DNA from: Candidatus Hydrogenedentes bacterium CG07_land_8_20_14_0_80_42_17
GTDB lineage: Bacteria; UBA8481
Assembly (NCBI GenBank): GCA_002780065.1
Contig: PEWQ01000193.1
Coordinates: 14,514-27,762 of the forward strand
Length of the DNA: 13,249 bases
Direction: 5' to 3'
A program made the position numbers and the translations under genes. Below are positions 1-12,686 of this stretch, one piece after another. Each line of letters starts with the position of its first letter. Position 1 is the stretch's first letter. A model generated the notes under the pieces. That model saw nothing but the letters and a program-made list of their open reading frames with translations, searched no databases and was not told the DNA's origin.

Positions 1-125
1 AAAAGCCTAGCACTACGGCTGGCCCGGTGTTATCGTCGATGGCTTTTTTCTGGAGCGCGATTTTGATTATTGGAATAATGCTGATATTAGCATATTTAGT
101 ATTTGGAGGAATAATAAGTGGCTGA
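1..125 (+). CDS. C-terminal end of an unidentified membrane protein (5' truncated)
   Basis: The third frame is open from the window edge to a TGA at 123-125 and gives about 40 residues. They include a strongly hydrophobic stretch, AFFWSAILIIGIMLILAYLV, followed by a short tail. This looks like a C-terminal transmembrane helix. The stop lies inside the first codons of the sigma factor gene, an 8-base overlap that is typical of translational coupling, so I read it as the preceding gene of the operon. Too little is visible to name it. FlhF or FlhG often sits at this place in flagellar operons, but neither ends in a membrane helix, so another protein is more likely. Confidence 0.55.
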   Translation, partial: KPSTTAGPVLSSMAFFWSAILIIGIMLILAYLVFGGIISG

Positions 126-906
126 AGCGCTAAAAAATCTTTCTGACGAAGTCATTTGGGAACAGTATCGTCAGTCAGCCGACATTGAAGTGAGGAATCA
201 CTTAATTGAGCGTTATGCGCCTTTGGTAAAATACGTTGCCGGCAGAATGGCAACAAACATGCCGCCTCAGGTGGAATTTGACGATTTGGTTTCATACGGA
301 ATATTCGGACTAATCGATGCAATTGAAAAGTATGAACCGTCTCGAGGATTCAAATTCAAGACGTATGCGACGACAAGAATTCGCGGCGCGATTATCGATG
401 AACTTAGAGCTTTGGATTGGATACCGAGATCAGTTCGGCAGAAGTCTCGTCAGCTTCAGCAGGTTTATTCTGACCTCGAAAACAGACTTGGCCGAGCGGC
501 GTCTGATGAAGAAATTGCTCAGGAATTAGGAATAAGTCTGGAAGAATTCGATCAGCTTGTGAACGATGTTTCCGGAACAGCAGTTATTTCGCTTGATGAC
601 GTCTGGCATGTTGGATCGGATGATGATGAGATACAAGTTGGAGATACAATTGCAGGTTCTGAAAAAGATCATCCGAATTACAAAATCGAACGTGAAGAAA
701 TTAAAAACATTTTGATAGATGCAATTAAGCAACTGCCGCCGCGTGAAAAAGAAGTAATTGCTCTTTATTATTACGAAGAGTTGACTCTGAAAGAGATTGG
801 ACTTGTTCTTGGAGTTACTGAATCGCGGGTTTCTCAGTTGCATTCGAAAGCGATCATGAGGCTTAAAGCGAAACTGCAAAAAAATCGCGAGGCTTTTTCA
901 ATATAA
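118..906 (+). CDS. fliA: RNA polymerase sigma-28 factor (FliA/WhiG family)
   Basis: This is an alternative sigma factor that directs RNA polymerase to late flagellar and chemotaxis promoters. The 262 residues match the family length. Region 2 covers about residues 25-97, with the conserved core-binding and -10 recognition stretch around FDDLVSYGIFGLIDAIEKY and the motif FKFKTYATTRIRGAIIDELR. The segment LDWIPRSVR begins region 3. Region 4 (about 205-255) has LPPREKEVIALYYYEELTLK followed by the helix-turn-helix LGVTESRVSQLHSKA. The start is GTG at 118, with a GGAGGA ribosome site at 105-110, 7 bases upstream. It overlaps the end of the upstream membrane gene and is followed after 46 bases by fapA, a common partner. 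No anti-sigma factor FlgM is visible in the window. Confidence 0.95.
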   Translation: MAEALKNLSDEVIWEQYRQSADIEVRNHLIERYAPLVKYVAGRMATNMPPQVEFDDLVSYGIFGLIDAIEKYEPSRGFKFKTYATTRIRGAIIDELRALDWIPRSVRQKSRQLQQVYSDLENRLGRAASDEEIAQELGISLEEFDQLVNDVSGTAVISLDDVWHVGSDDDEIQVGDTIAGSEKDHPNYKIEREEIKNILIDAIKQLPPREKEVIALYYYEELTLKEIGLVLGVTESRVSQLHSKAIMRLKAKLQKNREAFSI

Positions 907-952
907 TGAAAAAGATTTGTAAAGAGGTTTTGAGCAAATACGGGGGTATTTG

Positions 953-2641
953 ATGACGGAACAGAAAAAAAATAATCAAACAAATTCTGATGCATATCTT
1001 AAAAAAGGTTTCAAGCTGGAAGTTCAAGATGGCATGGTGAATCTCACAGTCTTTCCGTCAAAAGAAAATGTTTCTTTAGTCACTGTTGATGATGTAATGG
1101 CAGAATGCCAGAAGATGGGTTTTTATGATGTCGACCATGTATCTGTTGAGCAAGTTGTTAATACAGCTAATGGTGTAACGTCTTCGATAGGAAAGTTTGA
1201 ACCTCGAAAAGCTGATGCGGCAGTTACAGTCTCTGCGGACAATATGCAGGCATGGATAAGACTTTCTCCACCTGAACCCGGCGGAAAAAAACTAACGCTT
1301 GAAGAAATTAAGACAAAGATTCGATTGGAGAACATTATTTATGGTGTGAAAGAAGAAGTGCTTCAAAGGCTGGCAGAACATCCGTCGTATGAAACAGACA
1401 TTTTGATTGCGGAAGGAAGAGCGGTAGAAGAAGGCAAGGACGCAGATTATCTTTATTATTTCGAGGCGGAAAAGAAAATTCGCCCCATGGCTCAAGACGA
1501 ATCCGGCAGGGTAGATTACAAGGAGTTGAATTTAATCGAAAATGTTGTCGAAGGTCAGCACCTTGCTACAAAAATTCCGCCTCAGCCCGGCGCACCTGGA
1601 ATAACAGTAAAGAACGAATATATCGCTCCGAAAGCAGGAAAAGATAAACCTTTTGTTGTTGGAAAGAATGTCACGCTTTCAGAAGATGGCTTGGAAGCTC
1701 ATGCGGCAACGAATGGCGCTGTTATGCTTCTTGGCGGAAAAATCACAGTTTCGCAACTATATCAGATTAAAGGTTCGGTCGGAGCCTCGACCGGAAACGT
1801 AAATTTTTTGGGTTCAGTTGTTGTTTCTGATTCAGTAGAAGAAGGTTTTTCTGTGAAGGCGACCGAAACGGTTTCTGTAGGAAAAACAGTCGGCAAAGCT
1901 GTCGTAGAAGCGGGCGGAGACGTGACAGTGCGAGGCGGCATCATAGAATCTAAAATAATTTCAGGCGGTGATGTCAGAGCAAAATTTGTTGAGACTTCAG
2001 ATATTGATGCCAGAGACGATATTGTTATTAATGAAGCTCTCTTGCATTCAAATGTGCAGTCGGGCGGACAGATAATTGTCGGACTTGGAGGAAGAAAGGG
2101 AACCATTGCCGGAGGTCAGATACGTGCTTACAAACGAGTTTCGTGTAAGACGCTAGGTTCACCTATGTCAACGAAGACCAATGTCGATGTCGGCATAAAT
2201 CCGAAACTATTATCGAGAATGGAAGAACTGCAAAGCGGAATATTAAAAGACAGAGAAAACTTCGAAAACATTCAAAAAGGCATCTCTGCGCTGACTGCAT
2301 TGAAGGAGAAACTTGGAAACTTACCTCAAGCCAAGCAGAAGATTTTGGAAACTCTGTCGATTGCAATGGAATCATTGAAGACAAAATTGCAGGAGATGGC
2401 GGCTGAATTGCGCGATATTCAGACTCAAACTGCAGTAAAAGTCAAGGCTATGATTTCAGTTTCCGATGAGGCGTTTCCTGGAATTAAAATGACCATCGGT
2501 TCGATTAACTATTATACGACTCGCGAAGAAAAATATGTCACCTTTAAGGAAGAAGGCGGCGAAGTAAGAATATTTCCTTATGAAGCTCCAAAATTAAAGA
2601 AGGACAAAAATACGAAAGACGATACTAGTGATGAACAATGA
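953..2641 (+). CDS. fapA: FapA/DUF342 family flagellar assembly protein
   Basis: This is a large cytoplasmic protein of the FapA (DUF342) family, which is linked to flagellar assembly and polar placement of flagella in Vibrio; its biochemical role is poorly defined. I start it at ATG 953, 6 bases after GGGGG (942-946), not at TTG 950, which gives 562 residues. Roughly residues 100-280 hold the N-terminal family domain, with AWIRLSPPEPGGKKLTLEEI and ENIIYGVKEEVLQRL. Residues 280-400 are a glycine- and valine-rich beta-helix-like region with repeats such as GGDVTVRGGIIESKIISGGD. Residues 415-495 are a predicted coiled coil, followed by a beta-rich end and a charged tail. It follows fliA, as in many clostridial and spirochaete flagellar loci, and overlaps the next gene by ATGA. 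Confidence 0.88.
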   Translation: MTEQKKNNQTNSDAYLKKGFKLEVQDGMVNLTVFPSKENVSLVTVDDVMAECQKMGFYDVDHVSVEQVVNTANGVTSSIGKFEPRKADAAVTVSADNMQAWIRLSPPEPGGKKLTLEEIKTKIRLENIIYGVKEEVLQRLAEHPSYETDILIAEGRAVEEGKDADYLYYFEAEKKIRPMAQDESGRVDYKELNLIENVVEGQHLATKIPPQPGAPGITVKNEYIAPKAGKDKPFVVGKNVTLSEDGLEAHAATNGAVMLLGGKITVSQLYQIKGSVGASTGNVNFLGSVVVSDSVEEGFSVKATETVSVGKTVGKAVVEAGGDVTVRGGIIESKIISGGDVRAKFVETSDIDARDDIVINEALLHSNVQSGGQIIVGLGGRKGTIAGGQIRAYKRVSCKTLGSPMSTKTNVDVGINPKLLSRMEELQSGILKDRENFENIQKGISALTALKEKLGNLPQAKQKILETLSIAMESLKTKLQEMAAELRDIQTQTAVKVKAMISVSDEAFPGIKMTIGSINYYTTREEKYVTFKEEGGEVRIFPYEAPKLKKDKNTKDDTSDEQ

Positions 2642-4209: not shown

Positions 4210-4703
4210 TTTTTTTTGGAGTTGATCCCGGAACTGCTACAACAGGATACGGAGTTATTGAGACTGCAGGAACCACGAGATATCATGTAGCCCACGGAGT
4301 TATTAGAACTCCTGCAGGAATGGCTCCTGCTTCGAGATTGAAGATGCTTTATGATGCTCTGGGCGGCCTTTTTAGACGTTACAGGCCGGATGTGGTGTCA
4401 GTGGAAGAACTGTTTTTTTCTTCGAATGTGAAGACTGCTATGGCTGTTTCGGAGGCTAGAGGAATTGTGTTGTTGGCATCGGTGGACTTTGGAGCTGAAA
4501 TACTTTCATTCACTCCGAATAGAGTTAAACAATCGGTCACTCAGAATGGCAGAGCGGTCAAACGTGATGTTCAAGAGATGGTTAAATTACTTTTGAGCCT
4601 GCCGGATATTCCTAGACCCGACGATGCCGCAGATGCTCTTGCAATAGCTTTGTGCGCGACTCAGGAACCGAGATGGCTTCCTACAAGAGTAAGAAGAAGA
4701 TGA
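4206..4703 (+). CDS. ruvC: Crossover junction endodeoxyribonuclease RuvC
   Basis: This nuclease resolves Holliday junctions during recombination, working with the RuvAB branch-migration complex. The 165 residues match the family. The acidic active site of the RNase H-like fold is visible: Asp7 in GVDPGTATTGYG, Glu67 in SVEELFFSSNVKTAMAV, and Asp140 with Asp143 in DDAADALAIAL. The conserved stretch FTPNRVKQSVTQNGRAVKRD is also present. The start ATG 4206 overlaps the yebC stop in ATGA and puts the first catalytic Asp at the expected residue 7. Unlike the usual layout, ruvA and ruvB do not follow; a zinc-ribbon/PilZ gene takes their place, again coupled by ATGA. Confidence 0.97.
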   Translation: MIFFGVDPGTATTGYGVIETAGTTRYHVAHGVIRTPAGMAPASRLKMLYDALGGLFRRYRPDVVSVEELFFSSNVKTAMAVSEARGIVLLASVDFGAEILSFTPNRVKQSVTQNGRAVKRDVQEMVKLLLSLPDIPRPDDAADALAIALCATQEPRWLPTRVRRR

Positions 4704-5251
4704 AAAAGTTTGTTTCTAAAGAATCTGACTGCGCTTTTTGTCATGGCAGTAATATTGTTTATGTGACGAATTGTTTTGATACAAGCGGTAAGAAAATTTG
4801 CGAATTGTGGTTTTGCAATGAATGTTCAGGCTTTTTTCCGAGAATGCTAACGCTTCCGCCGCCGGGCAAAAATGATAAAATTAAAGAAAAAGATAAAAGA
4901 AAAGCTCCAAGATTTCCGGTTCAGTTTGTAATTCAGGTGGATTTTCATAACGATAATAAGAGACGAAGTTTTTTTGAGTTTGGAAAGAGCTCGATGTCTG
5001 AACCTATTGTTGCAATGGTGCTCGATGCCGGGTTCGGAGGACTTTGCTTCAGATATTCAAAGGCTATTGAAGAGGGAAGCGAAGGCAGAATGCTGATTTC
5101 CCTTCCGAGTGCCGAACGTTCGTTCATGGCGAGGGCAAAGGTTGTGAGATGCACGAAATTGCCTGATCAAAGTTTTGGATTGGGAGTTCAATTCGTAGAG
5201 GTCGATCCTGATTATCGAGATGCGCTAAAGAGATATGTCGAACTGTCGTGA
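4700..5251 (+). CDS. Zinc-ribbon and PilZ domain protein
   Basis: This is a probable cytoplasmic c-di-GMP-responsive protein. I start it at ATG 4700, which overlaps the ruvC stop in ATGA like the other junctions of this operon, giving 183 residues. A longer form from GTG 4652 would run 52 bases into ruvC and is less likely. Residues 11-42 hold CxxC (C11, C14) and CNEC (C39, C42), with C25 and C34 between them, a small zinc-binding module. Residues 66-180 are a PilZ domain. The RxxxR loop is R67 to R71 (RKAPR). The second motif reads DAGFGG (109-114), with Gly where the consensus D/NxSxxG has Ser. The domain ends in GLGVQFVEV. It is the last gene of the tight cluster; placement beside flagellar genes suggests c-di-GMP control of motility or a related process. 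Confidence 0.82.
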   Translation: MKKFVSKESDCAFCHGSNIVYVTNCFDTSGKKICELWFCNECSGFFPRMLTLPPPGKNDKIKEKDKRKAPRFPVQFVIQVDFHNDNKRRSFFEFGKSSMSEPIVAMVLDAGFGGLCFRYSKAIEEGSEGRMLISLPSAERSFMARAKVVRCTKLPDQSFGLGVQFVEVDPDYRDALKRYVELS

Positions 5252-5284
5252 TGCGTGTGATGAAAATTACGTTCGAACGGTAGC

Positions 5285-5302
5285 CGCAGGATTTAGCCTG
5301 CG
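5285..5302. repeat. Short palindrome in the intergenic gap, REP-like
   Basis: CGCAGG (5285-5290) and CCTGCG (5297-5302) form a perfect 6-bp stem around ATTTAG, in the 100-base gap between the PilZ gene and the first HEAT gene. No T-tract follows, so it is a poor intrinsic terminator. The wider sequence GTAGCCGCAGGATTTAGCC resembles dispersed palindromic repeats built on GCAGGCTTTAGCCTGC that I recall from several bacterial genomes. No second copy is visible in this window. Confidence 0.45.
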
Positions 5303-5351
5303 TTGTAATGGCAAGTTGTCAGCAAATAGATGAAAGGATTAACTTTATCGT

Positions 5352-6140
5352 ATGAAGAAAAAAACTAATAATGTGACTGACAAAAAATTTATTTGGATTC
5401 TTTTTGCCATTTGCATCGGCACGCTTTTTATTCTCGCAATTTCTATTATGATTAAGAATTCAATTTCTGCTCCGAAGCAGAAAAGAGAATCAACGATTCA
5501 AATTGAAGATGTTGATGAGTCTTCTCCTTCCGAAAACATTTCTCCGAAAAAACAGTTTGCTTTGGGAAGTAAATTGATGAGATCGAGTTCTTCTGAAGAA
5601 AAAATCAGAGGAATGCAGATTGTTATGACAGCCAATCCGAAGGATGGAGCAAATCTTTTGATTCCATGTTTGATGGATCCTGTTCCGGCTGTTAGAACTC
5701 AAGCCGCAACTTTATTATCGACTTATGAAATCCCAAATTTGGGTTCTCAGATAGTTATGCTTCTTGAGGATCCCGATAAAGCTGTAAGACTTGCCGCTTC
5801 TTCAGCAATGCTGAAGTATGCAAGCGAACCGGGAATAATGTATAGGTTTATGAGACCGATGTCTTCTCGTGATCCTGAGGTTGTGAAACTGACAATTCCT
5901 GTTTGGAAAGTTGCATTGCAGTACGATCCTAGAAATGCTATAGGAACGATAGCTCCTGCTTTATCTTCCTCTGACGAATCAGTGCTTTCTACAGCGCTTG
6001 GAGCTTTGACTCAGTCTTATCCTCGAACAAGAGATCTTGTCCCATACAAAACATTGCTTGAAGGAATTACTGCTCGTATGGGCTCTTCACCTTCGGGGCA
6101 GATGGCGCAGAGCTTACTTCAACGCATTAATGCGGAGTGA
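5352..6140 (+). CDS. Membrane-anchored HEAT-repeat protein, copy 1
   Basis: The 262 residues begin with a short basic cytoplasmic end and one membrane helix (about 13-34, KFIWILFAICIGTLFILAIS). A Ser/Glu-rich linker follows (about 40-65). The rest is an alpha-helical repeat region with HEAT signatures such as DPVPAVRTQAATLLSTY (109-125) and DPDKAVRLAASSAMLKYA (140-157). Such folds act as protein-binding scaffolds. The predicted topology places the repeats outside the cytoplasm. It is paralogous to the next gene: both share a block from the first DP..VR repeat to an EPG motif (EPGIMYRFMRP here, EPGFLYLLTSP there). The ribosome site AAAGG (5333-5337) is 14 bases from ATG 5352, which is long. 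I do not recognise a specific family, and no function can be assigned. Confidence 0.72.
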   Translation: MKKKTNNVTDKKFIWILFAICIGTLFILAISIMIKNSISAPKQKRESTIQIEDVDESSPSENISPKKQFALGSKLMRSSSSEEKIRGMQIVMTANPKDGANLLIPCLMDPVPAVRTQAATLLSTYEIPNLGSQIVMLLEDPDKAVRLAASSAMLKYASEPGIMYRFMRPMSSRDPEVVKLTIPVWKVALQYDPRNAIGTIAPALSSSDESVLSTALGALTQSYPRTRDLVPYKTLLEGITARMGSSPSGQMAQSLLQRINAE

Positions 6141-6142
6141 CA

Positions 6143-7003
6143 ATGACGAAGAAATACATGCCGTGGGATGATCAACCTCCAAAAAAAGAAGAAGATACGA
6201 AACGAAAAAGCGAAATTAAAAAACCTAAAACTATGATTACACCTTCTCTGCTGAAGTGGCTTTTCTACAGTATGTTAGGACTTTTGTTTTTGGCATCCAT
6301 TTTGATTACGGTAGAAAATTATTCCAAGAGCCCTAAAGAAGATCCTGCGGCAGCTATGCGCAGAGCAATGGGGATAACGGATAATTCAGTTGCCGGCAAC
6401 GATGCCGCAAAGACCGAATTGGATAATGCAATTGAAAAGATTTCTTCTGATGTGCCTGATGTAAGAATTGAAGGTTTGTCAAAACTTATGGAAATTGATT
6501 CGAATACTGCGGGGCCGCGACTTTTTATTTTTTTGAAGGATCCTTCACCAATGGTTCGAGCGGCAACTGCGCGATTGTGCGGTAGTTATCGAGTTCAAGG
6601 CGCACATAATTTGATACTGCCGCTTATCTATGAGGTAGATGCCGATGTTCGAAGCGGAGCAGTTGACGGGCTATCTGCTTTCGGAGCCGAACCTGGATTT
6701 TTGTATTTGCTCACTTCGCCGCTGGCGTATCCAAAATCGGATGTTGTAATTTCAGCAATAGATCTTTGGAATAGAACAGCGGTAAATAATTTGGAAGTTG
6801 CTAAGCAAGTCATAATTCCGGTATTGAGATCAAATGATGAACGGATTCTTGAGACGGCTCTTGATGCGATTAGTGCACGATTTACTTCCGTAGAATTGAC
6901 AGGAATGGAACCGTATCTGTTGGATATATCAAAAAGATTATGGGGAACTCCTGTTGGAGACAAAGCTAAAATCTTAGTGGATAGATTAAGGGGTCAGGCT
7001 TGA
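6143..7003 (+). CDS. Membrane-anchored HEAT-repeat protein, copy 2, with C-terminus completed by a mobile element
   Basis: I start it at ATG 6143, with GGAG at 6134-6137 and a 5-base gap, not at GTG 6137, which has no ribosome site; this gives 286 residues. A basic, charged N-terminus precedes one membrane helix (about residues 38-58, WLFYSMLGLLFLASILITV). A linker and HEAT-like repeats follow, for example DPSPMVRAATARLCGSYR and EVDADVRSGAVDGLSAFG. It is a tandem paralogue of the preceding gene, 2 bases downstream of its stop, and the pair may form a heteromer. The last residues GQA and the stop TGA (7001-7003) lie inside the left inverted repeat of the downstream element (from 6990), so the present C-terminus is not the ancestral one. 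Alignment with the paralogue suggests only a few residues changed. Function is unknown. Confidence 0.72.
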   Translation: MTKKYMPWDDQPPKKEEDTKRKSEIKKPKTMITPSLLKWLFYSMLGLLFLASILITVENYSKSPKEDPAAAMRRAMGITDNSVAGNDAAKTELDNAIEKISSDVPDVRIEGLSKLMEIDSNTAGPRLFIFLKDPSPMVRAATARLCGSYRVQGAHNLILPLIYEVDADVRSGAVDGLSAFGAEPGFLYLLTSPLAYPKSDVVISAIDLWNRTAVNNLEVAKQVIIPVLRSNDERILETALDAISARFTSVELTGMEPYLLDISKRLWGTPVGDKAKILVDRLRGQA

Positions 7004-7018
7004 ACTTTTTTACTTTTT
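6990..7018 (+). repeat. Left terminal inverted repeat of the RAYT element
   Basis: These 29 bases start GGGGTCAGGCTTGAAC and continue as T6-AC-T5. They equal the reverse complement of 7876-7904 with no mismatch. The repeat contains the TGA stop of the HEAT gene on the plus strand (7001-7003) and the TAA stop of the transposase on the minus strand (7010-7012). Confidence 0.9.
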
Positions 7019-7846
7019 TCTAGCTTTTGTAACTGCGGATGGAGAGACTCCGAAGAATCTTCCTATGGCAGAAGTGTTATATCCGTATTCGTAGAGAATA
7101 GACATAGCTTGTTTTCGAACGGCTACAACAGGACGATAAAAGATTCTTTTTTTTAGTAATGTTGGATCTATTCCTGCACGTTGGGCGCATTCTTCTGCGA
7201 CTTGTGTCATGGAAGGCCTTCCTCGGAATTCTCGCAATTGAGTTGTCGATCGCCCGTTTTTTCGCCGCTCTACGCCACCGTGATAGTGTTCGTTCAACCT
7301 TATTTCTATTTCAGGTACTGCTTCTTCTATGAGATTAAGATATCGTTTAGCCCCAGATGAGCCCTCAAATTCAGGTACTCGTTTCTCTGTTCCAAGCCTA
7401 TGCTCTCCTGTGCGATAGAATTGATCGCTAGACCAACGCCAAGTCTTTGGAGAGGAAGATAGATGTGCCCTGACTGGATTCTGATGAATGTAGCGGACCA
7501 GGTTATCGAGATAGGATTCCGACGAGACTCGAAATGAATTATAACGTCCCTGAAAAAGATGCCCGCTCCGATTATATTTTTTGTTGAAATAAATGCTGTA
7601 TCTTGTATGTAGAGTATGCATATGACGTGATAGTGGCTCGCGTCCTCGAAGAAGTAAGAGGTGGATGTGATTAGGCATGAGACAGTAGGAACCGATACGG
7701 ATGTCGAATCGCGCTGAAGCCTCTGCAAGGTAGCCTAAATAAGTGATGAAATCATCGTTGTCGAGAAAAATAAGGTGTTTTTCATTTCCGCGAGCGACAA
7801 CATGATACCATTGGTCTTGCAAATCCACTCTTAGTAGCCTTGCCAT
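7010..7846 (-). CDS. REP-associated tyrosine transposase (Y1_Tnp/HUH, RAYT)
   Basis: This is a single-strand DNA transposase of the HUH superfamily. It nicks with one tyrosine and uses a histidine pair to bind the metal. In the 278 residues the HUH motif is H60-I-H62 in MPNHIHLLLL. The probable nucleophile is Y119 in YLDNLVRYIHQNPVRA, a very typical RAYT segment, preceded by RSGHLFQGRY. The N-terminal YHVVARGNEK is also typical. The C-terminus (about 225-278) resembles the helix-turn-helix of the DnaA DNA-binding domain (SAIGRFFGVSPSAVTKA) often fused to such transposases. The gene looks intact, starting at ATG 7846 and ending in the left inverted repeat. Related proteins handle dispersed palindromes; whether this one is still active is unknown. 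Confidence 0.93.
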   Translation of the reverse strand: MARLLRVDLQDQWYHVVARGNEKHLIFLDNDDFITYLGYLAEASARFDIRIGSYCLMPNHIHLLLLRGREPLSRHMHTLHTRYSIYFNKKYNRSGHLFQGRYNSFRVSSESYLDNLVRYIHQNPVRAHLSSSPKTWRWSSDQFYRTGEHRLGTEKRVPEFEGSSGAKRYLNLIEEAVPEIEIRLNEHYHGGVERRKNGRSTTQLREFRGRPSMTQVAEECAQRAGIDPTLLKKRIFYRPVVAVRKQAMSILYEYGYNTSAIGRFFGVSPSAVTKARKK

Positions 7847-7904: not shown

Positions 7905-7920
7905 ATCATTACCATCATTA
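7903..7920. repeat. Tandem 9-base repeat at the element/pilus-gene junction
   Basis: CCATCATTA occurs twice in a row (7903-7911 and 7912-7920). The first copy takes its first two bases from the right inverted repeat, and the second contains the stop codon of the TadG-like gene. It could be an insertion footprint or a chance slippage product. Confidence 0.6.
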
Positions 7921-9372
7921 CTTCTGCAACCAGACGGTTGGAGTTGAATAGCGCGGCGGAGATGATTCAGGAGAATTGGTAATTGGAAAGTCGTCGGATA
8001 AAGCGGCATCGTAGTAAATTTGGAAATTATTGTTAGTGCTTGTGATCGAACCGCAAATAACCGATCCTTTCACAAATCCGTTTCCGCTTGCATCGTAATT
8101 TCCATCAGTGCCTTCATCGTTCGCATTATAGTTATTAAAATTTCCGCCCCAGTTGACTCTGCCAGGCGTATACACAGTGCCATACCAACAGGTTTGGTTG
8201 CCTTGAATATCAATTGCAGTTTGATCAGCTGTGTAGCTGGCTCCGGCATAAACTGCCAGCCCTGCATTATCCTTCCCTTCAATTGCAACCAGATTTGGGT
8301 CGGCATTGTCTGCATAAAGCCCGTGAAGCTCAGTATTGTTGTTTGTAGCCGGTACAGAAATTGTTCCTGAAACCTGAAAAGAGCCAAGCCAGTATTTTCC
8401 TTGAGTATTTGGAAGATTTATGTCGAGGCTTCCGTTAACTTTTACGTCCACACCGTTGCCCCATGTGGCTGTTTGAGACGAAGAAGCGGCTGTGACGTTA
8501 GAATTATCCGTTGTGATTATGAATTTAGAACCATCCCATCTGCATGTCACATCTACTCCGCTTGCGCTTTTTACCGGCTGACCATTTGTGCCGAGTAGCG
8601 AAGCTCCTGCTCCTCCATAACGAGCGATATCTGCGGGATTGTCTTTGTCGAGATAGACATCATTTACAAACTTATCTGCATCAATTTCGGGCCAGGGCTC
8701 AGCCGCAACACCATCTTGAACAGCAATGCCGCCGCCGCCTGCACTGCTTCCAGCCTCAAATGAGCCCACAATGGTATTTTGAGGGCTATTTGAAATCGTG
8801 ATACTACCGTTGATGTGAACATCTCCTTTAAAATAAAGGTTGTTTCCGTCTAATCCGGATAAGAATGAACCGACGTTTGTATCGCCGACAAAGAGAGCGT
8901 AACTACCGCCCGGAGGATTACTCAAATCGCCGTCTCCGTAAATTGTTTTTGAGGAAGTGTCCCACGCCGCGACTGCGATTGCATATCGAGTGATTCCGTA
9001 AAGCTCATTGCCTACAAGCCACGTGGGCATAATGACCGGGTCCCATGCTCCTGTCACAAGAACACCGACCGTTCCGGAACGATCTTCATCTGATACTGTG
9101 ATTTGAATATCGGAATCATAAGGAACGTAACCTGCGGAATGCTGTTGAATGTATTCTATGCACGCCTGTCTTGCTTTCGCTGAATCCGGCATCATGTCGG
9201 CTCCGGCAAGAGCCGCGGAATCGGCGACATCCTGTGCGGTTTGCTCGAGCATGAACTTTCTGCTGATATCGACTGTAAGTCCTGCGGTGACCATGAGCAC
9301 GACCAATATGAATGCGGCAAGAACGAGATACGACCCGGATTCTTTTTTTGTTTTTACTATTCTTGTATACAT
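7918..9372 (-). CDS. TadG-like pilus protein with beta-rich DUF7305-like passenger
   Basis: The 484-residue protein has a TadE/G-type N-terminus. A basic end (MYTRIVKTKK) precedes ESG, then the hydrophobic helix SYLVLAAFILVVLMVTAGLT (about 14-33), then the conserved VDISRKFMLEQTAQDVADSA and ALAGA. This is the Flp pilus-assembly TadG-like domain. Residues 150-484 are a Gly/Asn/Ser-rich, beta-strand-patterned exported region. Repeating motifs include YFKGDVHINGSITI and VDVKVNGSLDI, and near the end YGTVYTPGRVNWGGN and FVKGSVICGSITS. The final DAALSDDFP resembles DUF7305-type passengers of PilX-like proteins. Ribosome site GAGGAGGGG lies about 7 bases before ATG 9372. It follows two TadE-like genes with 17 bases between, and is a probable minor pilin or tip protein of a tight-adherence appendage. 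The assembly ATPase and peptidase are not in the window. Confidence 0.8.
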   Translation of the reverse strand: MYTRIVKTKKESGSYLVLAAFILVVLMVTAGLTVDISRKFMLEQTAQDVADSAALAGADMMPDSAKARQACIEYIQQHSAGYVPYDSDIQITVSDEDRSGTVGVLVTGAWDPVIMPTWLVGNELYGITRYAIAVAAWDTSSKTIYGDGDLSNPPGGSYALFVGDTNVGSFLSGLDGNNLYFKGDVHINGSITISNSPQNTIVGSFEAGSSAGGGGIAVQDGVAAEPWPEIDADKFVNDVYLDKDNPADIARYGGAGASLLGTNGQPVKSASGVDVTCRWDGSKFIITTDNSNVTAASSSQTATWGNGVDVKVNGSLDINLPNTQGKYWLGSFQVSGTISVPATNNNTELHGLYADNADPNLVAIEGKDNAGLAVYAGASYTADQTAIDIQGNQTCWYGTVYTPGRVNWGGNFNNYNANDEGTDGNYDASGNGFVKGSVICGSITSTNNNFQIYYDAALSDDFPITNSPESSPPRYSTPTVWLQK

Positions 9373-9389: not shown

Positions 9390-10184
9390 TTATAGTGAGA
9401 TTGGATTTCCGCCTAAATTCGGATGGCGGATCATATTTTGTCCTGAGCCTGCATCATAAATATCCAGGGTGTAATCGTTATCGTAGTCATACATTGAAAA
9501 TCCGGATTCAGCAGTGTCGGGGACGGCATCGTTATCAATATCATACGCCAGTTTGTCGGAAACACCACCGGAATCAGTATGACATAAAGCTGTGTAAGTG
9601 CCTTCGCGCGGCAGAAATAATTCAGGTTCGTAAAGATCGACTAAGCCGTCATGGTCTTCGTCGTTTCTCACCATTACAGCCTGGCTTGCGCTAAGCGGCA
9701 TAGTGACTAGAATAACCGGAGTGGCTCCAAAATATGGAGAGACATATCCTATTTTGTAATTCAATGAGAGTCTGACGTTCAATCCCTGAGCGCGCCAGAT
9801 GTATGCCGCGCGTCTTCTGGTTGATGCGTTGTATGTTCCCGGAGAAAATTGATCGTCGCTTACTAATGGAGCGATATCGTATTCGCCTCCAGGTGTTTTT
9901 GCCCAGACCTCCAATGCAAAATCTGAAACTTGGTGTTCCATGAAGACGGATTTCAATAGATGCTCATCTACTGCGGTTATCACATTGATTATCTCTTCAT
10001 CTGTCGCTCCGAGCGATGCAAGCCACACAGCCTGCTTCAAAGAATTTGAAACCATGTTTACGTTGTAATATAGAATTCCTGTTTCGTAAACCATCATGCC
10101 TATGAACATGAACAATAGGACGACAAATATTATTTCGATCAATGCCTGTCCGAATTTGGTTCTTTTACCTTTTCTAATTATCAT
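9390..10184 (-). CDS. TadE-like pseudopilin with DxDxDG calcium-type motifs, copy 2
   Basis: The 264 residues begin with a basic end and the prepilin-like site KFG/QALIEI (Gly12 then Gln13, Glu17 at +5). A membrane helix follows (about 15-40) and then the TadE domain. The C-terminal part carries acidic calcium-binding-type loops: D175-E-D177-H-D179-G180, D215-I-D217-N-D219 and D233-Y-D235-N-D237. These resemble thrombospondin type 3 repeats. The first follows the stretch AVMVRND, matching VIQRND in the paralogue upstream, so the two genes probably arose by tandem duplication. Its length exceeds the usual TadE of about 150-200 residues because of this added region. The start ATG 10184 overlaps the previous gene by 11 bases, with GGGAAG upstream. 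It is probably a processed minor pilin whose exposed part binds calcium; binding is inferred. Confidence 0.78.
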   Translation of the reverse strand: MIIRKGKRTKFGQALIEIIFVVLLFMFIGMMVYETGILYYNVNMVSNSLKQAVWLASLGATDEEIINVITAVDEHLLKSVFMEHQVSDFALEVWAKTPGGEYDIAPLVSDDQFSPGTYNASTRRRAAYIWRAQGLNVRLSLNYKIGYVSPYFGATPVILVTMPLSASQAVMVRNDEDHDGLVDLYEPELFLPREGTYTALCHTDSGGVSDKLAYDIDNDAVPDTAESGFSMYDYDNDYTLDIYDAGSGQNMIRHPNLGGNPISL

Positions 10185-11013
10185 ATCGGTCTTCCCAACC
10201 GTTATTGTTTTTGTCGTAAGACAAGTCGACCATGATAGGTATTGCTATGTATCCTGAATATGTTCTTGGAATTTTTTGAGGCCTGAAGAGATATGGTCCC
10301 GAGTCATAAGAACCGTCGGAAAGAATGTGAATAATTCGAGCACAGAATTTTCCGTCGCTGAGTTTCGTTACTACCTTCGCTCCGGCACCGGTATCAAGAG
10401 TATATGCCGCTCCGTTGTAAAGTAGTATTCCTGTATCGGTTAGGTTTGTTCTGCCGTCATTGTCCCAATCAGGGTCGCTTGAATCTGGAATACCGTCGTT
10501 GTCATGATCATTCTGCCTCGAATCGGCTTTTGCATTGGCAGTCACTGTATCGTAGAATCCATCGCGGTCGTTGTCATTGCGCTGAATTACGTAGAGTCTT
10601 GAACGAATCGGAAAAGTGCCTTCTATCGCGGACATTGCGAGAAACGAAAACCCTGTTCTGTATCCGATATTGACTTCTATTTCAGTTCCTTCGATTCGTT
10701 CGAACTGATTGTTGGGAGTTATAAAAGTTTCTGTATCGAAATCTATAGCAGAGACCATGAACGGAGATGCAAAGAATTGGCTTGCAAAACGGTCGTAGAT
10801 TACGGTGGCGACATCACTGTTTGAGGCTCCAACAGCGGCAAGCCTTGCGGCCTCCCATGTGGCTCGTTGTCCGAGATTGAAGTTGTAAGCAATCAACATC
10901 AAGTTTATTACGGCAAGAATAATGAATATAAAAAAGATGAAGGTCAATCCGAATTCAACCATGTACTGACCGCTCTTCTTTTTAGAAATTAATTTATTTT
11001 CTACATCCCTCAT
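10174..11013 (-). CDS. TadE-like pseudopilin with DxDxDG calcium-type motifs, copy 1
   Basis: The 279 residues start with a lysine-rich end (KLISKKKSG) and a prepilin-like cleavage site, Gly15/Gln16 in SGQYMVEF with Glu20 at +5. This is the pattern that TadV-type prepilin peptidases cut in Flp/TadE proteins. A hydrophobic helix follows (about 22-46) and then the TadE domain with GQRATWEAARLAA. From residue 147 there are acidic loops D147-N-D149-R-D151-G152, D169-H-D171-N-D173-G174 and D182-W-D184-N-D186-G187, and a last D267-KNNNG-WED near the C-terminus. These are thrombospondin type 3 or calcium-loop motifs and suggest a Ca-stabilised exported domain. It is the first gene of a minus-strand cluster of three. 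No clear ribosome site precedes ATG 11013. Confidence 0.8.
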   Translation of the reverse strand: MRDVENKLISKKKSGQYMVEFGLTFIFFIFIILAVINLMLIAYNFNLGQRATWEAARLAAVGASNSDVATVIYDRFASQFFASPFMVSAIDFDTETFITPNNQFERIEGTEIEVNIGYRTGFSFLAMSAIEGTFPIRSRLYVIQRNDNDRDGFYDTVTANAKADSRQNDHDNDGIPDSSDPDWDNDGRTNLTDTGILLYNGAAYTLDTGAGAKVVTKLSDGKFCARIIHILSDGSYDSGPYLFRPQKIPRTYSGYIAIPIMVDLSYDKNNNGWEDRYDN

Positions 11014-11049: not shown

Positions 11050-11109
11050 TAAAACTGTAAAAAGAAATACAACTTATTTAGTTTAGCGGTTCAGGATAGT
11101 TTTTCACTC

Positions 11110-11181
<72 letters not shown>

Positions 11182-11190
11182 ATGAAAGAA

Positions 11191-11510: not shown

Positions 11511-12686
11511 ATGGATCTATCACGTTTCAAACAAACGCCTGAAGAGCGGCGAAAAAATAAAGAATCTTTAATAGAGATGCTTCAAGAGAAAGTCGAAATA
11601 ATTTCTCATAAATTATCTGAGAAGAGAAGAACGATTTCGGTATTTGCTTTTATTTTCATTTCACTTATATCTTTCGTCATCTTCTCTCTTGTCACGGCAG
11701 GTGGATTCGCAGGCTCGGCCGAAGCAGTACTGAATCTTCCCAATCCTCCGCGGCTTCTTGCAAACAGAAATTACGAGAGATATTGCAATGGACCTGGTTG
11801 GAGAGCTCCAATGTCAATAACACTTTCTAGTCCAAACTATCCTGACATTGAAGGTAGAAGAATCGATTGGAATAAAGTATCCGGCAGAATAAACAACACG
11901 ATTGCTCAAAAAAGAGGAGTGCGAATCGGATTTGTAATTAAAGATTTAAAAACGGGAAGAACTCTTTTAAGAAATGAAAATGCGAGGTTTGCTTCCGCAT
12001 CGCTTGTAAAAATTCCGCTTCTTATTACTTTGTATCGCGATATAACAGACGGAAAAATCAAAGTTCTTCAAGGCGCATATTATTCGGAAAAGCTTAGAGC
12101 CAGCGGTTCCGGCAGATTGAAATCAGAACCGGCAAATCGTAGAATTAATCTCCGAGATCTAGTATTCCTCATGCTACAGCACAGTGATAATACCGCAACG
12201 AACATTCTCGCAGATCTCGTCGGCTATGACCATGTAACAAGGTATTGCCGCACAATGGGCTGGCGAAACACAAACTTCGTTAGACCGGTTATGGCTCTTG
12301 AACTCCGAGCAAAAGGCATTGAAAACTGGACAACACCAAAAGAATTCTCTGAGATTATAGAAAAAATATTTAGAGGCTCGATGATTTCACAAGAGGCATC
12401 GCGCGAAATGATTCAGTTCATGACAAATCCTCCCATTGATGACCGTCTTCCAAGATATCTTCCGCCGAGAATAGACATAGTCCACAAAACAGGGCTCATC
12501 TACGATAACGCGCATGATGTCGGAATCATTTATCTTCCCGGCGACCAAGCTGTTCTAGTATCGGCATTTGCAGACAATATCGGAACGAATTACATGACTG
12601 CCAAAGAGACGATAGCTTCTATCGCAAGAATTATTTACGAGGAAGCGACTCCGCCGTCTCTTTGGGAACCCGGTCGAAGACATTAA
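11511..12686 (+). CDS. Membrane-anchored serine hydrolase of the class A beta-lactamase fold
   Basis: The 391-residue protein has a charged cytoplasmic N-terminus of about 42 residues and one membrane helix (about 43-65). A Pro/Asn-rich linker leads to an exported catalytic domain (about 125-380). The three motifs of penicillin-recognising serine enzymes are present: SLVK (nucleophile Ser164, Lys167), SDN (225-227) and KTG (326-328). The omega-loop region reads MALELRAKGIENWTTPKEF. It keeps the TTP element but lacks a clear ExxLN, which carries the deacylating Glu of true class A lactamases, so hydrolysis of beta-lactams is uncertain. A peptidoglycan-related or amidase role is also possible. 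No good ribosome site precedes ATG 11511; the frame and domain plan support this start, though a shorter form from ATG 11577 is possible. It converges on trmFO. Confidence 0.88.
   Translation: MDLSRFKQTPEERRKNKESLIEMLQEKVEIISHKLSEKRRTISVFAFIFISLISFVIFSLVTAGGFAGSAEAVLNLPNPPRLLANRNYERYCNGPGWRAPMSITLSSPNYPDIEGRRIDWNKVSGRINNTIAQKRGVRIGFVIKDLKTGRTLLRNENARFASASLVKIPLLITLYRDITDGKIKVLQGAYYSEKLRASGSGRLKSEPANRRINLRDLVFLMLQHSDNTATNILADLVGYDHVTRYCRTMGWRNTNFVRPVMALELRAKGIENWTTPKEFSEIIEKIFRGSMISQEASREMIQFMTNPPIDDRLPRYLPPRIDIVHKTGLIYDNAHDVGIIYLPGDQAVLVSAFADNIGTNYMTAKETIASIARIIYEEATPPSLWEPGRRH

Follow-up and report, generated by a model that had tools for sequence, protein, structure and literature searches.

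Two consecutive genes of this genome, E1 and E2, encode Tad minor pilins that carry a tail with DxDxDG loops behind their pilin head, and this tail is a real, conserved and rare feature. Taken as a whole, the best explanation is probably that E1 and E2 are pseudopilins of the Tad pilus tip stabilised by calcium.

Pilin heads and loop-bearing tails of E1 and E2

The stretch of DNA that we analysed (13,249 bp, hereafter the window) forms the end of a contig 27,762 bases long (G000:C131:14514-27762), which belongs to a draft genome of 2.39 Mb. E1, E2 and a TadG-like gene are consecutive on its minus strand and form a three-gene operon (Table 1), with an overlap of 11 bp between E2 and E1 and a TadG-like gene that starts 17 bp after E2. 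A tRNA-Met is encoded upstream of the operon on the same strand (11109-11182), and promoter-like sites around the operon are no commoner than in shuffled sequence.

Table 1. Features of the E1, E2 and TadG-like operon, with positions in the window and residue numbers of each protein.
Feature	Position	Strand	Remarks
E1, TadE-type minor pseudopilin, 279 aa	10174..11013	-	First gene of the operon; TSP3-like tail
E1 predicted prepilin cleavage, G15/Q16	10966..10971	-	KKKSG/QYMVEF; Glu20 is +5
E1 TadE domain, residues 15-57	10843..10971	-	18.7 bits, below the 22.9 cut-off
E1 loop 1, DNDRDGFYD, residues 147-155	10549..10575	-	DxDxDGxxD invariant in 8/8 relatives
E1 loop 2, DHDNDGIPD, residues 169-177	10483..10509	-	
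E1 loop 3, DWDNDGRTN, residues 182-190	10444..10470	-	
E1 loop 4, DKNNNGWED, residues 267-275	10189..10215	-	C terminus
E2, second TadE-type minor pseudopilin, 264 aa	9390..10184	-	
E2 predicted prepilin cleavage, G12/Q13	10146..10151	-	TKFG/QALIEI; Glu17 is +5
E2 loop 1, DEDHDGLVD, residues 175-183	9636..9662	-	Same place as E1 loop 1
E2 degenerate loop, DIDNDAVPD, residues 215-223	9516..9542	-	Without Gly
E2 degenerate loop, DYDNDYTLD, residues 233-241	9462..9488	-	Without Gly
TadG-like third gene of the operon	7918..9372	-	Long C-terminal region; PF13400 Tad, E 1.3e-8

The original prediction described both ORFs, which lie where it placed them, as TadE pseudopilins with unusual tails and with a prepilin-peptidase site bearing Glu at +5. 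The site is present in E1 and E2, and the TadE assignment is supported at the level of the family: the TadE model (PF07811) matches all eight members, with a best E of 2.7e-9, and the individual matches of E1 (E 0.002, 18.7 bits) and E2 (E 0.0062, 17.1 bits) both lie under the curated cut-off of 22.9 bits. AlphaFold models, built on four-sequence alignments, give each head a long N-terminal helix and three main strands with fair confidence, the last head strand ending at residue 141 in E1 and 169 in E2. The tails of these models have pLDDT values of about 30-45, and a Foldseek search with the E2 model against the PDB returned no match with E ≤ 0.001.

In both paralogues, loop 1 starts six residues past the last head strand (at residues 147 and 175, respectively). 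E1 has four canonical loops; E2 has one, plus two degenerate ones, and the sister genome has a canonical DYDNDGWID where E2 has the degenerate DYDNDYTLD. When the tails were shuffled, the four DxDxDG motifs seen in E1 compared with 0.09 expected and were matched in none of 20,000 shuffles, and the single motif of E2 compared with 0.03 expected (P 0.03 for DxDxDG, 0.005 for DxDxDGxxD). The evidence for the E2 loop is weak by itself, and its support comes from invariance across relatives. In an alignment of eight proteins that includes both paralogues from four genomes, the loop 1 motif NDxDxDGxxD is invariant even though identity to E1 drops as low as 23%, and the tail sequence outside the loops varies between lineages. 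The invariant tail columns are, in E1 numbering, N146, D147, D149, D151, G152, D155, H170, G174, D177, and D267. Eight of these ten are of the loop-ligand type (Fisher P 4e-4 for both paralogues; 2e-6 and 0.02 for the orthologues of E1 and E2 alone), an enrichment test that is partly circular since the motif was chosen from the same aligned sequences. The matching RND stretch reported previously ahead of the loops is real (E1 145-147, E2 173-175), and the relatives keep only its "ND" part.

The assignment of the loops to the thrombospondin type 3 (TSP3) kind holds well for E1 and is weaker for E2. A profile of the E1 orthologues, searched against all PDB sequences, had COMP (3fby) as its best match, a weak one (E 0.0067), followed by thrombospondin-2 (1yo8), both over the loops; the corresponding E2 profile found nothing significant. 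Residues 166-194 of E1 (RQNDHDNDGIPDSSDPDWDNDGRTNLTDT) fit the TSP3 pattern DxDxDGxxDxxDxDxDxDGxxNxxD and share 15 of 29 residues with a COMP repeat, a likeness that includes the Asp pattern of the loops, and loops 2 and 3 together look like one TSP3 repeat. As the Pfam TSP_3 model scores E1 at 11.3 bits, under its cut-off of 25, and does not match E2, we name the tails TSP3-like and not TSP3 members. Judged from sequence, they are TSP3-like by their residues in E1 and by position and conservation in E2.

Distribution of the tails and their Tad context

Relatives of both E1 and E2 occur in three other genomes that belong to two small deep lineages. One of them, G001 (contig RFFU01000040.1, labelled Candidatus Hydrogenedentota), is a sister of the window genome within the same taxonomic order; the other two, G019 (MAG T1Sed10_126) and G041 (MAG CSSed10_354m), alone make up a separate group at phylum level. 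When a profile of the eight family proteins was run over 386 genomes, full-length relatives with head and tail were found only in these four genomes, the window's included. None of the 141 other TadE/Tad-type ORFs from this search (picked by head similarity with E up to 0.05, and including some TadF- and TadG-like proteins) has such a tail, in agreement with the earlier statement that standard TadE proteins lack these loops; the tails are thus not universal in ordinary TadE. A DxDxDG of any kind occurs in two of the 141, both of family f62 and with a single motif, which we rejected as the same feature because it lies inside the head and not in a tail. An archaeal protein (L026) was set aside as repeat similarity only, its match spanning 22 residues of an Asp-rich repeat region, and a plasmid tblastn search with E1 gave no match.

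Membership of the pair in a tight-adherence (Tad) system, also part of the original prediction, is borne out by the gene context in G019 and G041. The G019 cluster reads E1, E2, CpaB, RcpA, TadZ, TadA, TadB, TadC, and a TadG-like gene (we read the names of the core genes from sequence and confirmed RcpC and T2SSE). In G041, E1 is directly preceded by a Flp pilin gene and followed by E2, CpaB, RcpA, and TadZ, and this placement between the Flp pilin and cpaB-rcpA-tadZ identifies E1 and E2 as Tad minor pilins. The window genome has its core Tad operon (CpaB, RcpA, TadZ, TadA, TadB, and TadC) on contig C88, a Flp pilin on C144, and one PF01478 prepilin peptidase, on C116; within this genome, no locus besides E1 and E2 reaches E 0.001 with the TadE model. 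The trio of E1, E2 and the TadG-like gene is apart from the core Tad operon here and in G001. Relatives of the TadG-like gene adjoin the E1/E2 pair in G001 and belong to the Tad cluster that holds the pair in G019. Given the Tad context of the relatives and the single RcpC of each genome, the trio most simply represents the minor pilins of the window genome's Tad system, and it was, again most simply, split from the core Tad operon in the window's taxonomic order.

Two further loci are shared by both genomes of this order. A second TadA-like ATPase is encoded together with TPR-like genes away from the core Tad operon (L180:961-2298; L184:4497-5831), and the gene directly upstream of CpaB (L178:3965-4753; L181:14288-15127) is conserved and encodes an N-terminal membrane helix. 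The window genome's copy of the latter has no Pfam match, and its product is possibly another pilin-like subunit.

Next to the TadG-E2-E1 operon, both genomes of the order encode HEAT-repeat proteins, of which the window has two and G001 one, as well as a PilZ protein that bears two CxxC motifs in its N-terminal part (window 4652-7003; L021:7331-9015). A REP-associated tyrosine (IS200-like) transposase gene separates the Tad trio from the HEAT genes in the window (7010-7846), its product having a weak DnaA-type match at the C terminus. The product of window positions 11511-12686 resembles class A beta-lactamases, with a best model score under the curated cut-off (134 vs 200 bits), and includes a membrane segment in its long N-terminal region. 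Upstream on the same contig (L019 and window 118-2641) is a series of flagellar genes, fliM/fliN, fliP, fliR, flhB, flhA, flhF, and flhG (names read from sequence), followed by genes for a FliA/WhiG sigma factor and a FapA protein.

A TSP3_bac repeat in CpaB and the possible role of calcium

The CpaB/RcpC protein of the window genome (G000:C88, L178:4839-5834) has DSDSDGYTDVDELAQGTDPKDS just past its membrane helix and before the SAF domain, and that of G001 (G001:C14, L181:13089-14342) has DSDNDGYPDLDEQAAGTDPNDP between the membrane helix and the SAF domain. This TSP3_bac (PF18884) repeat, first noticed in this analysis, is conserved between the window genome and its sister. In protein scans it scored 25.5 bits in G001 (cut-off 25) and 22.3 bits, below the cut-off, in the window genome; six-frame genome searches gave 30 and 26 bits, respectively, both above it. 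The latter searches, in which TSP3_bac was the only calcium-repeat model used genome-wide, found nothing but the CpaB repeat in either genome. The repeat occurs in none of 70 other CpaB-like ORFs, one of which has an unrelated DEDESG elsewhere. Since the CpaB proteins of G019 and G041 are without the loop, not every genome with tailed TadE proteins requires it. In the window's taxonomic order, the inner-membrane partner CpaB/RcpC has a TSP3 loop as well, so that calcium may have two sites of action in the machine.

Calcium binding by the tails, as predicted from their loop motifs, is likely, and the sequences suggest an adhesive pilus that depends on calcium. We infer Ca2+ as the ligand, the tip as the location, and stiffening or assembly as the function. 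E1 and E2, predicted to be cleaved by the prepilin peptidase, would be minor pseudopilins of the only Tad (Flp, type IVc) pilus system in this bacterium. By analogy with TadEFG and KilLMN, they probably join the TadG-like protein in a tip complex that starts the Flp pilus. The TSP3/EF-hand-like DxDxDG tail placed directly after the pilin beta-sheet in each protein would most likely stay unfolded until export and take up its fold when it binds Ca2+, either in the periplasm or outside. Tails folded in this way would stiffen the exposed tip or tie assembly or adhesion to external calcium, and the CpaB loop might stabilise the periplasmic linker of CpaB; both the folding after export and the linker role are proposed from published work on Tad tips, PulG, and PilY1. 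If the loops do bind calcium, a metal-dependent tip module would become known for a widespread pilus system, offering a direct test of Tad tip folding after export and of whether Tad pili can respond to external ions.

Whether calcium would also regulate the pilus is more questionable. We regard as rather doubtful a calcium-gated adhesive pilus, in which external calcium switches Tad pilus assembly or tip function via TSP3-type sites in the tip pseudopilins and CpaB, and a purely structural role of calcium is at least as likely as regulation. The tails might be constitutive structural spacers that bind Ca2+ tightly on leaving the cytoplasm, the extra domain then folding with no calcium regulation, a reading whose probability we place just short of even. 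The Tad tip would then be an ordinary one with an equally ordinary accessory domain, and this reading overlaps the best explanation in everything except the regulatory step. Secreted proteins commonly contain TSP3 and dockerin-like loops as stabilising modules, and loop 1 is invariant and directly follows the pilin sheet, as a structural clamp would; the CpaB loop of the same taxonomic order is left unexplained by such spacers, though it may be structural too.

It is less probable, and in our judgement unlikely, that the tails are receptor- or surface-binding modules whose acidic loops contact mineral, polysaccharide or partner cells via bridging divalent cations. Published Tad tips, namely the Kil tips and CpaL, do differ by their exposed C-terminal domains (PMC12075869, PMC12607857), and the variability of the tails outside the loops points the same way, but the sharing of the loop 1 residues by both paralogues has a structural look and not that of a diversified binding face. 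The low-confidence tail models and the one motif of E2 (P 0.03 by shuffling) would agree with Asp-rich tails that are acidic sequence with DxDxDG loops arising by composition and no metal role. The excess of motifs in E1, the invariance of loop 1 across eight divergent proteins and the lack of tails in the 141 other TadE/Tad-type ORFs nonetheless make this improbable. Most improbable of all is that the trio is part of a different type IV filament, for instance the type II secretion pseudopilus whose genes are near the trio in the sister genome: gsp-like pseudopilin genes (read by eye) are close to the trio in G001, and the trio is apart from the core Tad operon there and in the window genome, but in G019 and G041 the E1/E2 pair is located within the Tad operon, and the heads match TadE. 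Tad tip pseudopilins stabilised by calcium remain our preferred explanation. Weighing against it are the low pLDDT of the modelled tails, the TSP_3 score of E1, the single canonical loop left in E2 and the loop-free CpaB proteins of G019 and G041.

Comparison with known systems

In published work, TadEFG-type minor pilins are assigned to the tip of the Tad pilus, where they have been proposed to start assembly and to carry exposed variable domains (PMC12075869; for CpaL, PMC12607857). E1 and E2 resemble TadE and TadF (PF07811; TadE/TadF of A. actinomycetemcomitans and CpaJ/CpaK of Caulobacter) in their Glu+5 prepilin site, TadE head, operon with a TadG-like gene and Tad machinery in the genome, and differ from them in having about 90-135 additional residues, with DxDxDG loops, beyond the head and in scoring under the Pfam cut-off. 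The Myxococcus Kil tips (KilL/KilM/KilN) and CpaL are also Tad minor pilins with extra exposed domains and a TadG-like partner (PMC12075869, PMC12607857), but bear vWA or other modules where E1 and E2 bear TSP3-type loops. In the Tad-tip literature searched we found no TSP3-type loops on TadE subunits, nor, in the literature searched, any case of calcium as cofactor of Tad minor pilins or CpaB; a search for work joining TadE with thrombospondin type 3 or EF-hand found nothing relevant. Compared with the TSP3 repeats themselves (PF02412) and with TSP3_bac, the E1 tail resembles them over residues 166-194, and it differs from thrombospondin type 3 in its score below the TSP_3 cut-off, its few loops and its lack of a long Ca2+ wire.

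Type II secretion pseudopilins and PilY1 are already known to have calcium as a structural cofactor. PilY1 is not a pilin, whereas E1 and E2 are pilins and bear the loops themselves. PilY1 of type IVa pili depends on calcium (PMC8833165), which makes this tip-associated factor of a type IV filament comparable to what we propose for E1 and E2. For the type II pseudopilin PulG, calcium is critical for folding and assembly, and GspG/PulG, which has a pilin fold, carries its calcium site in its C-terminal part (PMC6692295), as proposed here for E1 and E2. The GspG/PulG site is, in contrast, within the pilin domain of a major subunit of the type II secretion system, whereas E1 and E2 would be minor Tad subunits with a multi-loop TSP3-like tail.
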